From contig JABIQT010000034.1 in the NCBI GenBank assembly GCA_018667995.1, positions 1 to 7,421 of the forward strand: a DNA stretch of 7,421 nucleotides. Reading direction: 5' to 3'. A model generated the notes under the pieces. That model worked only from the letters and a program-made list of their open reading frames with translations, was not told the DNA's origin and did not search any database. Shown here piece after piece: positions 1,996-7,421 of the stretch. The stretch's first letter is position 1, and each line of letters opens with the position of its first letter. A program made the translations under genes and the position numbers. This stretch comes from Candidatus Latescibacterota bacterium. Lineage in GTDB: Bacteria; JAAXHH01; JABIQT01.

Positions 1996-2181
1996 ATGGG
2001 CGCTCCGGCGGATTCTTCAGCGGTTGAACACGATCGGTTCCTACCCGATACCGTCCACATAAATGTAGCTGGCAACCGGTCCTTTCCCGCGGATTTCTGG
2101 GACAGCGTCCGGATATGGACTCCGGCTCATGTGGCGGTGGATTTCTCCGACTTTGATATTCCAAAGGAGCAGGGCTTATGA
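1996..2181 (+). CDS. Possible small hypothetical protein (61 aa) leading the GTPase cluster
   Basis: I do not recognise this product. The frame is open back to a TTG at 1915, but that start lies upstream of the predicted transcription start. The ATG at 1996 coincides with a change in composition: codons from 1996 on have about 59% G or C in third position, against about 33% in the 27 codons before it, which suggests coding begins here. The stop codon overlaps the next start (TTATGA, 2176-2181), as in translationally coupled genes. Against it: there is no clear ribosome binding site before 1996, no recognisable domain, and the frame could simply be open by chance. The predicted product is acidic and rich in W/F/D, has no membrane segment or signal, and ends in PKEQGL. 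Confidence 0.4.
   Translation: MGAPADSSAVEHDRFLPDTVHINVAGNRSFPADFWDSVRIWTPAHVAVDFSDFDIPKEQGL
2164..2180 (+). promoter_or_regulatory. Ribosome binding site and coupled start of the coiled-coil gene
   Basis: AAGGAG (2164-2169) lies 8 nt before the ATG at 2178. This is an excellent Shine-Dalgarno site and supports the start there. It lies inside the last codons of the possible upstream small ORF, whose TGA overlaps this ATG. Confidence 0.7.
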
Positions 2182-2903
2182 ATACGTCGGAAGACGATAA
2201 AAGTGCTTCGAGCGATTCTACAAACGAAACTACGGATGAACAGAAAAACACGATTGAGTTCAGACACAGGAGTGAAGACATGAATATCGCACCGAAGGAA
2301 GTTCCTGTCGACCCCGCACCTTCCCGGAGGATCTCCGGTCCTCAGACCGCCGCTCCGCCTGTCCAGGGCAACTCCGCCGATGGCGAAGAGGTATCAACCG
2401 GTAACATCGACAAGATCCGTAATATCATTTTTGGCGATCAGATGCGGAATTACGAGAAGAAATTCCGGCGTCTTGAAGATCGGCTGAATCAGGAGCTGGC
2501 TGATCTGCGTGAAGAGACCAAACGCCACTTCAATTCATTGGAAACGCATATTTCCAGGGAGTTTGATTCTCTCGTCAATCGTCTCCGAAACGAACAGGAC
2601 GAACGCTCGCAGTCGGTGCACGAGCTGGAACAGGAAATGAAACTGCTCACATCCGATCTCGATCAGAAACTCTCCCGATTGGACAATAGTACCAGCGAGA
2701 CACAGCGAGATTTGAGGCAGCAGATTCTCGATCAGTCCAAGGCATTGCGAGACGAACTGCGACAGAAGCACCAGGAAATGATCGCCGCATTGGAGCGCGA
2801 ATCGAAGGATCTGACCGACAGCAAGGTAAGCCGCGGCGGTTTGGCCACACTGCTTACTGAGGTGGCTATGCATCTTAACGCTGACGGTGAGGGCGACGAG
2901 TAG
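2178..2903 (+). CDS. Cytosolic coiled-coil protein of a Ras-like GTPase cluster
   Basis: This 241-aa protein has no signal peptide or membrane helix. Residues 1-75 are polar, rich in S, T, D, E and P, and probably disordered. A compact motif follows at about residues 76-95 (IDKIRNIIFGDQMRNYEKKF), then a long heptad-like coiled coil rich in E, K, R, L and Q to about residue 215. A short C-terminal helix motif, SRGGLATLLTEVAMHL, ends the protein. The arrangement (conserved motif, coiled coil, conserved amphipathic end) suggests a scaffold or partner rather than an enzyme. From memory, similar coiled-coil proteins accompany bacterial Ras-like GTPase/OmpA clusters, which fits the neighbours; this is family-level recall, not a search result. 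An alternative start at 2280 (Met35) has an equally good ribosome binding site and would remove the first 34 residues. The next gene starts 29 bp downstream. Its molecular role is unknown. Confidence 0.82.
   Translation: MNTSEDDKSASSDSTNETTDEQKNTIEFRHRSEDMNIAPKEVPVDPAPSRRISGPQTAAPPVQGNSADGEEVSTGNIDKIRNIIFGDQMRNYEKKFRRLEDRLNQELADLREETKRHFNSLETHISREFDSLVNRLRNEQDERSQSVHELEQEMKLLTSDLDQKLSRLDNSTSETQRDLRQQILDQSKALRDELRQKHQEMIAALERESKDLTDSKVSRGGLATLLTEVAMHLNADGEGDE
2268..2282 (+). promoter_or_regulatory. Second in-frame ribosome binding site and start inside the coiled-coil gene
   Basis: AGGAG (2268-2272) sits 7 nt before an in-frame ATG at 2280 (Met35). It is as good as the upstream site, so this is either the true start or an internal start giving a shorter form without the acidic N-terminus. 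Confidence 0.35.
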
Positions 2904-2932
2904 CGGTTAATCCGTTCTCGTGTGGGCTGATC

Positions 2933-4735
2933 ATGTCTGATTCCTCAACGCAGGACGATTCTCCCAAGAAGACACCCTCTGATGTGACCGGTGATTCACT
3001 CGATGAACTGCGTCGCCTCATTTTGAATCGCGAACAGCGCGAGCTTGAGTCCCTGCGGGAGGATGTGGAGCACCTCACTAAGCGTCCCCATGCGCTGACA
3101 CCTGATGAAGTAAGTGATGTGCTGCCTGATGCCATTGTTCGCCGCACAGGGCAGGACAGGCAGTTGGCCAGGGCTCTTTCCTCCACAGTCGAGGAGGCCA
3201 TCCAGACCTCGGTCAAGAAAGATCCCCAACCACTCGTTGATGCCATTTTTCCGGTCATTGGTCCCGCCATCCGGAAGGCTATCAGTAATGCCTTGAGCAG
3301 CACCATCCAGTCCTTGAACACCACCCTTGAACACAGTTTATCACTGCAGGGCCTCAAGTGGCGTATGGAAGCCATGCGGACCGGGCGGCCCTTTGCTGAG
3401 ATCGTTCTCAGTCATACCATGCTGTATCAGGTCGACCAGGTCTTTCTGATCCACAAAGAGACCGGGCTGCTGCTACAGGACGTGGAGTCTGGTAATACGA
3501 CTGTGCAAGATGCCGATATGGTGTCTGGGATGCTGACAGCAATCCAGGATTTCGTGCACGACTCCTTCACGGTGAAGAAGGGTGAACAGCTCGACACCAT
3601 GCAGGTAGGTGATCTTACGGTCTGGATCGAGCGCGGCCCACACGCAATCATTGCCGCTGTCGTTCGGGGAGCCCCGAATCAGGAACTCAGAGTCGTTCTG
3701 CAGGATGCTGTGGAGACGGTACATCTGGAAATGGAAGTGGCGTTTCAGGATTTCTCGGGAGATTCGGGGCCGTTCGCTGCAATTCGCCCACATCTCGTTT
3801 CCTGTCTACAGATTCAGCTGGCCGAGGATGAGGAAACCAAGGCCAAATCGCCTGCCTTCTGGATCATCCTGTGTGCCTGTGTGATCAGTCTCAGTATCTG
3901 GGGATTCGTCTCCACCAGGGATGCCTGGCGGTGGTCGGCCTACTTGGATCTTCTGGAAGATGAACCCGGAATAGTCGTAACCAAGACCGGAACTCGGGAC
4001 GGCCTCTTCTACGTCAAGGGCCTACGTGATCCGCTGGCGCCGGATCCCGCCACCTTGCTGTCCGGCACCGGTCTCCTTCTGACGGACGTGTCAGGTGAAT
4101 GGGAGCCTTATCTTGCCTTTCGACCGGAATTTATTGTGCAAAGGGCCGCCCGGTTGGTATCGCTTCCTGAGACTGCGAAATTGACGTACGAGGATGGCAC
4201 GCTTCATCTCAGCGGTACTGCACCCATGATTTGGCTGAAGGACGCCCGCGAGCGTGTGCGGTATATGCAAGGCGTCGCGGGATTGGTGGAAGCGGATGAT
4301 TTCCTCACCGAAGAGATGGGCCGTATGCTCGATATGCAGGCGCTCGTCGAGAATCTTACAATAATCTTTCCCGTAGGATCAAGCCGTCTGAACCCCGGCG
4401 ACTACCGCCAGATTGAGACCGTAACGAATACCGTGAGAGCTCTTAACAGTGCTGCCGCAGCGGTAGCCATATCCACTCAGATTGAGATCATAGGACATTC
4501 AGACTCCACAGGGTCTGCGGCAATGAATACGCTCATCAGCACGCGGCGGGCGATGCGCGTCCGGGACGCCCTCGTTGACGCAGGATTTCCGGCTTCCGAG
4601 TTCATTGCACGCGGTGTCTCGGCCACTGTTCCGGTGGATGATGGATCACAGGACCGGATACAGGAAGCCAGTCGTCGAGTTTCATTTCACGTTCTGGTCT
4701 CCGACCGGGCCTCGGACGAGGAAACAAGGCAATGA
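2933..4735 (+). CDS. Single-pass membrane protein: cytosolic roadblock/longin-like region plus periplasmic OmpA_C domain
   Basis: The 600-aa protein has a predicted N-in/C-out topology. Residues 1-135 are a charged, helical, probably cytosolic region. Residues about 160-295 look like a small-molecule/GTPase-partner fold of roadblock/longin type: a VDQVFLIHKETGLLL strand pair (167-181) and the helix MVSGMLTAIQDFVHDSF (196-212), then GDLTVWIERG and AAVVRGAP strands. One hydrophobic helix lies at about 307-327. The periplasmic part starts with a BON-like stretch and ends in an OmpA_C domain from about residue 474: FPVGSSRL, GHSDSTG (521-527), N532 and STRRA. D524 and R539, 15 residues apart, match the pair that binds diaminopimelate in OmpA-type domains. 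No signal peptide is present, so the helix is the export signal. The roadblock/longin assignment is by pattern only. Its stop overlaps the GTPase start, so the two are probably translationally coupled and may work as partners. The ribosome binding site at 2933 is weak. Confidence 0.88.
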   Translation: MSDSSTQDDSPKKTPSDVTGDSLDELRRLILNREQRELESLREDVEHLTKRPHALTPDEVSDVLPDAIVRRTGQDRQLARALSSTVEEAIQTSVKKDPQPLVDAIFPVIGPAIRKAISNALSSTIQSLNTTLEHSLSLQGLKWRMEAMRTGRPFAEIVLSHTMLYQVDQVFLIHKETGLLLQDVESGNTTVQDADMVSGMLTAIQDFVHDSFTVKKGEQLDTMQVGDLTVWIERGPHAIIAAVVRGAPNQELRVVLQDAVETVHLEMEVAFQDFSGDSGPFAAIRPHLVSCLQIQLAEDEETKAKSPAFWIILCACVISLSIWGFVSTRDAWRWSAYLDLLEDEPGIVVTKTGTRDGLFYVKGLRDPLAPDPATLLSGTGLLLTDVSGEWEPYLAFRPEFIVQRAARLVSLPETAKLTYEDGTLHLSGTAPMIWLKDARERVRYMQGVAGLVEADDFLTEEMGRMLDMQALVENLTIIFPVGSSRLNPGDYRQIETVTNTVRALNSAAAAVAISTQIEIIGHSDSTGSAAMNTLISTRRAMRVRDALVDAGFPASEFIARGVSATVPVDDGSQDRIQEASRRVSFHVLVSDRASDEETRQ

Positions 4736-5223
4736 TTCAAAAGAAAATCTGTATGCTCGGGGCATTTGCGGTCGGCAAGACAAGTCTCGTTGGCCGTTTT
4801 GTTCGGAGTATTTTCTCCGACAAGTATCAGACAACCGTCGGGGTCAAAATAGACAAGAAGATCGTTTCGGTTGGCGACGAACAGGTAAACATGATGCTGT
4901 GGGATTTACACGGTGAAGACGAATTTCAGAAGGTCCGCATGTCCTATTTACGCGGCGCATCAGGTTACCTTCTGGTAGCAGATGGTACCCGGAAGGACAC
5001 ATTGGACATCGCCCTAAGTCTTCATGAGACCATTCAAGAGTCGGTGGGGACCATTCCGTGCATTCTGGTCGTCAACAAGTCAGATCTGTCTGACGACTGG
5101 GAAATTGAGAAATCCGAACTCGATGATCTGGCCACGAATCACTGGGAGATCATCTACAGCAGCGCTAAATCGGGCGAAGGTGTCGAAGAAGCCTTTCAAT
5201 CTCTTGCTCGACAGGTAGTCTAA
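4732..5223 (+). CDS. Ras-like small GTPase (prokaryotic Rab/Rup-type)
   Basis: This 163-aa protein is a minimal GTPase domain with all five G motifs. G1 is GAFAVGKTS (10-18), G2 Thr35 in YQTTVGVKID, G3 WDLHGEDEF (57-65), G4 NKSD (115-118) and G5 SAK (144-146). Length and spacing match Ras almost residue for residue. It is a nucleotide-dependent switch, probably cytosolic: there is no membrane helix and no C-terminal lipidation cysteine (it ends QVV). Two positions are unusual: Phe12 where Ras has Gly12, and Glu62 where Ras has the catalytic Gln61. Slow intrinsic GTP hydrolysis, or a different catalytic mode, is inferred. It is not a close MglA match, since MglA has a different G3. Its ATG overlaps the stop of the OmpA-domain gene by 4 bp, with GAGGAA (4718-4723) upstream. 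The likely partner is the roadblock/longin-like region of that neighbour. Confidence 0.95.
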   Translation: MIQKKICMLGAFAVGKTSLVGRFVRSIFSDKYQTTVGVKIDKKIVSVGDEQVNMMLWDLHGEDEFQKVRMSYLRGASGYLLVADGTRKDTLDIALSLHETIQESVGTIPCILVVNKSDLSDDWEIEKSELDDLATNHWEIIYSSAKSGEGVEEAFQSLARQVV

Positions 5224-5356
5224 AGAAAACAGTGATGGCAATCTGAGCCGCCTATTTGGTCACTCTCGACTTCCATACTGTGCAGCAGGCAGCCGCCCAG
5301 CATCTTGAAATACATCGATGCCATACCTCCCACAATCACACATAATTTCCCCACAC

Positions 5357-6865
5357 ATGTCACTACCCGAACAACTTCTTGCTTACACACAGACCGCTTT
5401 CGTTGATCCCCGACACCCCGCCTATCTGCTGATGAATGACGAGGGATCCCTTCTTGAATGGGGTGGGGAACTTTCCCACTATTCGCTTTCTTCGCTTGCA
5501 CAAAACGAACCCGTCAGCGCGCAGCTCCCATTCCTGGAGGGGCTCCTGCCTGCTGAGACGATTCCGCTGGAACTACCCTCAGTTGAAGTGGCGGCGGGCG
5601 TCTACGCCGATCTCCACATCCTGACCGGAGATCGGGGCGATTGGATATTGCCGTTGGATGCGACCGAGGCCGTACATGAACAGCAGAAGATTCAGCAAAA
5701 GCTCAACGAGATTAACCTTCGAAAGACCAATAACCAAAGCGGTACGTCAAGTCCAACAGAGATTCCCTGGCATGCCGTGTTTCCAACACTGAACATTGCG
5801 GCCATGGTTCGTGTGGATGAGCACGAATTTAACCTGCTCTCTGCTCCCCCCTCGTGGCTGATAAAGCTGTGGCCTGAAGCGGTATCCCTCAGAGAGAGGA
5901 TTCGACCGGGCGATGTCTTTTCATTCCTTGAGTATTTTCTCATCGAGGCTGAGACATTCTGGGAATCTTCATCGTCCGGGCAGTTGGGCTCAGGGTTCTG
6001 GACGGAAGCCGATCAGCATGGCCACGAGTATCAACTTGAGGCAACGGCCACAGCGGTGGACGACACAAAGCTCCTGCTGATTTCATTCCCTGAGCAGGTC
6101 TTCCACGATCAGCAGGAGATACTTCAGAAGAGTAGAGAAATCAGCCTTACCCATGAGCGAACGCTTCAGGAAATTCAGAAAAAGGACGTGCTTCTTCATT
6201 GCATTGTCCACGACCTGAAAAGTCCCCTAAGTACTATGAAAGGGGTACTCGACCTCCTCGCAGCCGGTATCATAAAACCAGAGCGTATGGAGTCCATGAT
6301 TGCCTCGGGTCAACAGCAAGCCGATCGACAGCTCGGAATGATCCAAGATATCCTGACCGCCTTTGCCGCTGAAATGGGTGCCCTGGATTCCCATTCTGTA
6401 CGCCGGGTCGATGCGCCAGATGTCGTTCGCTGTGCTCGATCTGTGGCAGACGGACTCGAACCCGCCTACTCTAGAAGGAACATCAGGCTGGTTGTGGGAT
6501 CGCGTACAGAGGATGCAGCCGATTGGCCGGTAGTCGGGGAAGAGTCCCGGCTGGAGCGTATCTTTACCAATCTGCTTGAGAACGCCCTGCGCCACACCGC
6601 CGAAGGCACTGCCGTCACCATCGACTTCAGCCGGAAGAACGGCACCATTCTGACCACTATAGAGGATGAAGGCCCGGGGATCCCTGAGGGTCTGGTCGAT
6701 CGCTTGTTCGAGAAATTCTCACAGGGCGAACAGGGCGGTTCGACGGGCCTGGGACTCTACTTCTGCCGCATTACCGTAGAACGCTGGGGCGGAGCCATAG
6801 GAGCGCAGAACCGCGATGAAGGCGGTGCACGATTCTGGTTTGACTTGCCTGAGCCCGCCAATTAG
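5357..6865 (+). CDS. Soluble sensor histidine kinase with two PAS-like N-terminal domains
   Basis: The 502-aa protein autophosphorylates a histidine and would pass phosphate to a response regulator, though none is in the window. There is no membrane helix, so it senses an internal signal or partner. Two PAS-like segments precede the kinase core: about 20-105 (YLLMNDEGSLLEWGG, QLPFLEGLLP, WILPLDAT) and 135-245 (WHAVFPTLNI, then FSFLEYFLIEAETFW at 188-202). The H-box is VHDLKSP with phospho-acceptor His285, preceded by IQKKDVLLHCI. The ATPase core has N-box NLLEN (405-409), G1 DEGPGIP (437-443) and G2 TGLGL (463-467), so it appears catalytically complete. I chose ATG 5357 because residues before it look unlike the domain and use unusual codons. 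ATG 5318 would add 13 residues; neither start has a clear ribosome binding site. The gene lies 133 bp after the GTPase on the same strand, so it is probably in the same cluster, possibly with its own promoter. Confidence 0.93.
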   Translation: MSLPEQLLAYTQTAFVDPRHPAYLLMNDEGSLLEWGGELSHYSLSSLAQNEPVSAQLPFLEGLLPAETIPLELPSVEVAAGVYADLHILTGDRGDWILPLDATEAVHEQQKIQQKLNEINLRKTNNQSGTSSPTEIPWHAVFPTLNIAAMVRVDEHEFNLLSAPPSWLIKLWPEAVSLRERIRPGDVFSFLEYFLIEAETFWESSSSGQLGSGFWTEADQHGHEYQLEATATAVDDTKLLLISFPEQVFHDQQEILQKSREISLTHERTLQEIQKKDVLLHCIVHDLKSPLSTMKGVLDLLAAGIIKPERMESMIASGQQQADRQLGMIQDILTAFAAEMGALDSHSVRRVDAPDVVRCARSVADGLEPAYSRRNIRLVVGSRTEDAADWPVVGEESRLERIFTNLLENALRHTAEGTAVTIDFSRKNGTILTTIEDEGPGIPEGLVDRLFEKFSQGEQGGSTGLGLYFCRITVERWGGAIGAQNRDEGGARFWFDLPEPAN

Positions 6866-6977: not shown

Positions 6978-7421
6978 ATGCGCGTTGCCGTACCTTTTAC
7001 AGTCACCTCACCCCTGCCGGATAATCTCGGACACATACCCATCTCTTCAGAGGTTGATTTCTCCTCGTTGATCGCCTCCGCAGGACTCACGGGCGTATTG
7101 AATCCCAATACCATAGTAATCCTCGATGTCTCCAGCGGAACTCCGGTACCCCATGGCCGCACAGAGGACTTCGCGTATTCGGATTGCGGGCGATTGGAGT
7201 GGGTGATTGCTGATGGGGCTCACAAGGAATATGAAATACACTTCTCCGTTGTAGCTGAGAGACCTCCGCTTCTTCCTCAAGAATACACGCCGATGGTCGG
7301 TGTCGGAGACCTGATTCGTTACAATGCCGGTGTGCCCAGGCCCATTACCCTCGGGTATTCTATGAAATTGGTCGATATCACCGGATATGGTCAACGGGAT
7401 CTTGTCGGATGTTGGAATTAC
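6978..7421 (+). CDS. FG-GAP/VCBS-repeat-like protein, 5' part (runs off the window)
   Basis: An open frame of 148 codons starts at ATG 6978, with AAGGA (6966-6970) 7 nt before it, and has no stop before the window edge. The first about 90 residues look like a beta-rich domain (VDFSSLIASAGLTGVL, then a strand-rich stretch with LEWVIADG and YEIHFSVV). After it, residues 131-146 read as an FG-GAP/VCBS blade: VDITGYGQRDLVG resembles the canonical D-x-N-G-D-G-x-x-D loop, keeping D133 and D141 but with Thr and Tyr at two usual ligand positions. Such proteins are usually beta-propellers that bind carbohydrates or calcium outside the cell. No N-terminal signal peptide is visible, which is odd for that class. 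The catalytic domain, if any, is beyond the window, so no enzyme activity is called. Confidence 0.72.
   Translation, partial: MRVAVPFTVTSPLPDNLGHIPISSEVDFSSLIASAGLTGVLNPNTIVILDVSSGTPVPHGRTEDFAYSDCGRLEWVIADGAHKEYEIHFSVVAERPPLLPQEYTPMVGVGDLIRYNAGVPRPITLGYSMKLVDITGYGQRDLVGCWNY

Follow-up and report, generated by a model that had tools for sequence, protein, structure and literature searches.

The stretch of DNA analyzed here, hereafter the window, is one entire contig (C884; JABIQT010000034.1) of 7,421 nucleotides from a metagenome-type assembly, 85% complete, of a Candidatus Latescibacterota bacterium. It carries four genes on one strand, encoding a coiled-coil protein, a membrane protein with an OmpA domain, a small Ras/Rab-like GTPase and a cytosolic histidine kinase. 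Judged by its sequence features, this cluster belongs to the Group 1 Rup GTPase loci, a kind that has already been published (Wuichet and Søgaard-Andersen, 2014; PMC4316618). For the cytosolic domain of the membrane protein, previously a domain of unknown function (DUF), the modeled structure gives a confident prediction of a longin domain. The genes and their parts are the following:

2178–2903, plus strand: coiled-coil protein, 241 amino acids (open reading frame, ORF; homologues adjoin the longin gene at 51 of the 61 loci read)
2933–4735, plus strand: longin–transmembrane (TM)–OmpA protein, 600 amino acids (ORF, Pfam), equivalent to the "DUF-TM-OmpA" partner of Group 1 Rup
3074–3307, plus strand: amphipathic helical region ahead of the longin domain (alignment; no Pfam family)
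3308–3820, plus strand: predicted longin domain, residues 126–296, core from about 3422 (predicted structure, fold matches)
3854–3910, plus strand: single TM helix, residues about 308–326 (hydropathy 2.34 over 19 residues)
3911–4360, plus strand: periplasmic domain between the TM helix and the OmpA domain (no Pfam family)
4367–4657, plus strand: OmpA peptidoglycan-binding domain (Pfam PF00691, E=1.2e-11; motif N-x3-S-x2-R-A-x2-V read in the sequence)
4732–5223, plus strand: Ras/Rab-like GTPase (Rup), 163 amino acids (Pfam Ras, E=3.2e-33)
5357–6865, plus strand: cytosolic histidine kinase, 502 amino acids from 5357 or 515 from 5318 (HisKA and HATPase_c; no TM helix)
5357–5740, plus strand: PAS-like N-domain common to Rup outputs (alignment and homologue model; no Pfam family)
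5696–5698, plus strand: codon of the invariant Gln, residue 114 from 5357 or 127 from 5318 (column of the output alignment; helix after the N-domain)
6200–6358, plus strand: HisKA phosphoacceptor domain (Pfam)
6539–6856, plus strand: HATPase_c domain (Pfam)

An earlier sequence-only reading of this DNA had described four genes on one strand with two start/stop overlaps; the four ORFs are present at the coordinates it gave, and two ATGA overlaps are found. One ATGA overlap joins the OmpA protein and the GTPase at 4732–4735; the other, at 2178–2181, joins an 88-amino-acid ORF (1915–2181), whose reality is uncertain, to the downstream coiled-coil gene. The coiled-coil and OmpA protein genes are separated by 29 bp, and the GTPase and kinase genes by 94 or 133 bp depending on the kinase start. 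Since kinase homologues start at the equivalent of MSLPEQLLAYTQ, position 5357 appears more likely than 5318. The coiled-coil protein shows conserved motifs both in its N-terminal part (ID-IR-ILFG...E-RF--LE) and in its C-terminal part (KV-R..L).

The published Group 1 Rup locus consists of a coiled-coil protein, a DUF-TM-OmpA protein, a Ras-like GTPase whose catalytic Gln is missing from the G3 motif, and an output protein that invariably has a Gln in its N-terminal part (PMC4316618). The window matches this description feature by feature: the GTPase is a single-domain member of the Ras superfamily of 163 amino acids (the limit being 240), it lacks the Gln of G3, it has a coiled-coil and a domain-TM-OmpA neighbor, and the output, here a histidine kinase, carries Gln114. 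The idea that these genes form a module was therefore right but not new, as the locus had been described in 2014 (PMC4316618). At that time no Rup member had been characterized (PMC4316618), and a literature search found no experiment on a Rup system; beyond that paper and a brief treatment in PMC4915359, it surfaced no study of Rup at all, nor any link between longin and OmpA. To the 2014 description the present analysis adds that a longin fold is predicted for the DUF, that the output domain is PAS-like, that OmpA is optional and that Gly60 of the GTPase is often lost; it also widens the list of outputs to sigma-54 activators and cyclases.

The longin assignment comes from an AlphaFold2 model of residues 126–296 of the OmpA protein, built on a 53-sequence alignment (mean predicted local distance difference test score, pLDDT, 82.8; predicted template modeling score, pTM, 0.72). 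Behind leading helices, the model follows the strand/helix order b-b-a-b-b-b-a-a. Foldseek ranks the Mon1-Ccz1:Ypt7 complex first (E=1e-4), and its leading matches belong either to the longin class (longin, adaptor/coatomer small subunit) or to the roadblock proteins. With VIA-align, the Z score is 14.0 for TRAPP Trs23 (2.6 Å over 125 residues), 13.2 for VAMP7, 12.9 for Sec22b, 12.8 for CPLANE Fuzzy, 12.7 for the Fuzzy chain of Fuzzy-Inturned:Rab23, 11.7 for a Lokiarchaeal longin, 11.6 for MglB and 11.2 for Mon1-Ccz1:Ypt7. The longin chains align over model residues 41–171, while MglB covers 40–148 and the roadblock chains extend to about 148; therefore, the longin-typical C-terminal helix appears to be present. 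In this way the "roadblock/longin" guess of the sequence-only reading is resolved, by predicted structure and fold matches, in favor of longin. The N-terminus of the protein would be cytosolic and its C-terminus periplasmic. Because longin and roadblock proteins form dimeric platforms for small GTPases, mostly acting as guanine nucleotide exchange factors (GEFs) and at times as GTPase-activating proteins (GAPs) (PMC10933270), the longin/OmpA protein may control or dock the GTPase encoded next to it.

The GTPase has Rab-23 as its closest sequence match in the PDB (E=1.6e-26). Its G1 motif (GAFAVGKT) is intact, and its G3 motif reads DLHGED, with Glu at the position of Gln61; Gln61 is also absent from most of the family GTPases compared. 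Asp58 of G3 is retained in 50 of 50 GTPases. Gly60 of the same motif (DxxG) is substituted in 20 of the 50 (16 His, three Asn and one Ser), and for this reason GTP hydrolysis in the Rup family may be unusual or poor. Such substitutions, seen in GTPases of the G060 group (e.g., locus L047, 6720–7250), are unusual for a Ras-family switch. The complex of Rab-23 with the longin proteins Fuzzy-Inturned (9rs9) appears in the same list of matches. This coincidence between the nearest relative of the GTPase and the matches of its neighbor is suggestive, a hint of homology and not a proof.

The histidine kinase is recognized by Pfam through HATPase_c (E=1.3e-25) and HisKA (E=3.6e-7), and hydropathy reveals no TM helix in it. 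Its N-domain, of which a homologue was modeled with a pLDDT of about 93, is termed PAS-like on predicted secondary-structure order alone, because Rab/Ras matches filled the list when a GTPase–N-domain model was used for the fold search. The Gln of the invariant column is present in 43 of 44 output proteins and may have a catalytic or a structural role; in the homologue model it lies in the long C-terminal helix past the PAS-like fold, which is the position of a signaling helix. Half of the 44 outputs (22) are sigma-54 activators with a Fis helix-turn-helix, 11 are histidine kinases and three have nucleotidyl cyclase domains, to which one HD-GYP protein (assigned by motif) and three stand-alone N-domains are added. 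The kinase is thus one among several outputs, and the conserved core is the GTPase plus the common PAS-like N-domain. A different arrangement is seen in a Rubricoccaceae member (L002, 2968–5474), where the kinase has no N-domain and a response regulator of receiver-AAA-Fis type comes after it, a candidate for a partner acting downstream.

The spread of the system was followed with a profile of the cytosolic domain, which was found in 9 of 384 genomes across bacterial families, in 18 of 146 genomes of the G337 phylum (taken to be cyanobacteria, judging by gene content) and in 36 of 388 genomes around G060. A total of 61 loci were read; these were picked by the cytosolic region of the OmpA protein, so that adjacency is conditional on it, and contig ends were scored as absence. 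On these terms, the coiled-coil and longin genes are adjacent in 51 loci, the longin and GTPase genes in 50, the GTPase gene and that of an N-domain output in 41, and 37 loci have the four genes together. As the identical set and order (coiled coil, longin/OmpA, GTPase, output) repeats in distant genomes, the grouping is far beyond chance. The sequence-only reading had noted that similar GTPase/OmpA groupings seem to exist in diverse phyla and had stated beforehand that its module, in which a small GTPase has a wall-tethered partner, would fail if homologues were not co-located elsewhere; the counts for longin–GTPase adjacency and for the full set bear it out. Its other two elements hold in part. 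The kinase belongs to the module in the window and is replaced elsewhere by the other outputs; the wall link is present in the window protein, through an OmpA domain with a peptidoglycan-binding motif, and is missing from several other loci.

The association extends beyond adjacency. Of the 388 genomes, 36 scored for the cytosolic domain and 35 for the Rup GTPase; 33 have both, five only one and 350 neither, and the longin protein and the GTPase co-occur at the genome level even where their genes are unlinked. Three genomes were scored as having the domain only. Two of them (G635 and G638) are fragmented assemblies; in the third (G113), the protein keeps the helical, TM and OmpA parts, it is the sole one seen without the longin domain, and no GTPase was detected in the genome at E 1e-10. 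Where the gene group is split (e.g., G458 and G654), the GTPase remains with the N-domain protein. From this and the near-constant co-occurrence it follows that the system divides into two sub-modules that nearly always accompany each other, one made up of the coiled-coil and longin proteins and the other of the GTPase and its output; the tightest pair is that of the GTPase and the output N-domain. In addition, loci such as L092, L093 and L099 retain a longin protein of about 300 amino acids without TM helix or OmpA domain, with the GTPase and output alongside, so the wall-binding part is optional and the core function is something other than wall sensing.

Two further loci depart from the usual pattern. 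In another genome of the window's phylum (G013, contig C27, locus L034), a coiled-coil gene and a diverged longin-type protein without TM/OmpA stand in the gene order of the window; this genome has no Rup GTPase, possibly through decay following GTPase loss. At locus L033 (G049, contig C16), the GTPase gene at 8060–8386, beside an intact longin/OmpA gene, has an internal deletion that shortens its product to 108 amino acids; an N-domain remnant of 91 amino acids comes next (8383–8658), while a full-length GTPase is located elsewhere in that genome (C141, 577–1068).

The mechanism that we regard as reasonably probable is that a wall-tethered longin platform sets the nucleotide state of the GTPase, which in turn drives the cytosolic histidine kinase via the PAS-like domain. 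Direct support lies in the gene content, the synteny, the co-occurrence, the missing Gln61, the invariant Gln and the kinase without TM helix, joined by the predicted longin fold; the binding steps, the direction of the signal, the GEF or GAP activity and any wall sensing are what we infer. In such a scheme, the OmpA-domain protein would lie in the inner membrane, anchored to peptidoglycan through its periplasmic OmpA domain, and would display the longin domain to the cytosol together with its helical extension and the coiled-coil partner. The longin domain, probably dimeric like other longin/roadblock complexes, would bind the Rab-like GTPase and set its nucleotide state as an exchange factor, a GAP or a docking platform. 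In one nucleotide state, the GTPase would bind the PAS-like N-domain and alter the activity of the kinase, the output then being carried by a response regulator encoded elsewhere in the genome. Lacking its own catalytic Gln, the GTPase may rely on the output protein to supply one, the invariant Gln, or work by another mechanism.

Several points weigh against this mechanism. Some longin domains, such as those of SNAREs and adaptins, do not regulate GTPases in such a manner, and a common fold is not a proven function. By sequence, the cytosolic domain gave no significant Pfam match (best E 0.051) and none in a PDB-sequence profile search. When the GTPase and N-domain were modeled as a single chain (the L053 read-through, with the stop changed to Gly, a shallow alignment and a short linker), the pTM was 0.59, a value that speaks neither for nor against binding. 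The Fisher test of longin/GTPase co-occurrence (p about 5e-42) ignores phylogeny; in two genomes (G592 and G596), the longin protein went undetected while GTPase and output are both present; and TM and OmpA are absent at the loci mentioned above.

Part of this evidence would also suit a simpler role for the OmpA protein, as a mere scaffold that localizes the GTPase and output at the envelope, in which case the longin domain would not affect the nucleotide state and the wall would not be sensed. Longins also localize and assemble in SNAREs and adaptins, which rank among the best fold matches, OmpA domains often serve as wall anchors, and the GTPase and N-domain output can occur without an adjoining longin gene. 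Nevertheless, envelope placement is not a constant task if several longin proteins lack TM/OmpA, and longin and GTPase stay paired in genomes even when unlinked, so we consider this reading unlikely. Slightly less likely still is a reverse flow, as in one model of an actinobacterial conservon, with the kinase upstream, the GTPase as the output and the N-domain with its invariant Gln acting as a GAP. In conservons, a histidine kinase does occur together with a small GTPase that was proposed as the output, and a Gln retained in nearly all outputs while most GTPases lack Gln61 would fit a GAP. However, the outputs swap among kinases, sigma-54 activators, nucleotidyl cyclases and stand-alone N-domains, as downstream effectors would, the kinase has no TM helix, the Gln lies in a helix past the PAS-like fold with no nucleotide-site contact demonstrated, and hydrolysis may be unusual or poor in any case, given the Gly60 substitutions. 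That the genes form an accidental or merely regulatory operon whose products do not physically interact is very improbable: operon membership by itself does not prove interaction, and only this one of the 16 genomes of the window's phylum has the full set, but the gene order is kept across phyla, the genes co-occur when unlinked, and G113 lacks both the longin domain and the GTPase.

The MglA/MglB pair of Myxococcus also joins a bacterial small GTPase to a partner of the related roadblock fold; unlike MglA, the window GTPase has the Asp of G3, and its partner has longin topology with an extra C-terminal helix and is membrane-bound. The MglA family was rejected on the retained Asp58 and on the lack of a roadblock Pfam match in the window ORFs. 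The actinobacterial conservons (CvnA-D, AGPS) likewise combine, in one operon, a histidine kinase and a small GTPase with a roadblock/longin-class partner and one further protein, but their kinases are membrane sensors with HAMP and an LPxR motif, whereas here the longin/OmpA protein is the membrane-bound component and the kinase is cytosolic. The window departs from a conservon in two respects, the kinase having no TM helix and Pfam finding no roadblock gene. The eukaryotic longin Rab GEFs (TRAPP, Mon1-Ccz1 and Fuzzy-Inturned) provide the best fold matches and share the combination of a Rab-like GTPase with a longin partner; the window system differs in being bacterial, operon-encoded and tethered by TM/OmpA, with a GTPase without Gln61, a GEF activity that is putative and no membrane traffic implied.

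In human cells, the longin fold controls Rab switches. The predicted longin identity of the conserved Rup partner would name a regulator, make GEF/GAP assays immediate and tie a bacterial signaling operon to the eukaryotic machinery that controls Rab proteins. A further gain would be to see how a bacterium can couple a Ras-type switch to peptidoglycan and plug it into kinases, sigma-54 activators or cyclases. Rup GTPases have been reported as the prokaryotic group closest to eukaryotic Rab/Ras/Rho/Ran (PMC4316618, PMC4915359). A broader proposal, which we put forward only tentatively and consider doubtful, is that a widespread operon-encoded pair of Rab-like GTPase and longin regulator exists in bacteria outside the archaeal line, tied to the wall in some lineages and reaching its outputs via a common PAS-like effector domain, and that it is homologous to the eukaryotic longin-Rab modules (TRAPP, Mon1-Ccz1, Fuzzy-Inturned). 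If true, Rab-longin control either predates endomembranes or was exchanged with bacteria.

Some minor features of the window remain to be mentioned. The coiled-coil protein (2178–2500) and the OmpA protein (2933–3060), as well as their homologues, show a similar N-terminal motif (IR-ILFG/LR-LIL, E.., LE), a weakly supported resemblance; the suspected common motif was discarded, as the hhalign score was merely 19%. The ORFs at 1915–2181 and 6978–7421, the latter running past the contig end, have no significant match in Pfam, NCBIfam or PHROGs. Upstream, positions 220–1902 encode an oligopeptide-type ABC transporter substrate-binding protein with no sign of module membership. Right before the 88-amino-acid ORF and the coiled-coil gene, a sigma-70-like site with an extended TG (TTGACA-16-TATCTT) is found at 1907–1934, one of seven such sites in a region where 3.1 are expected.

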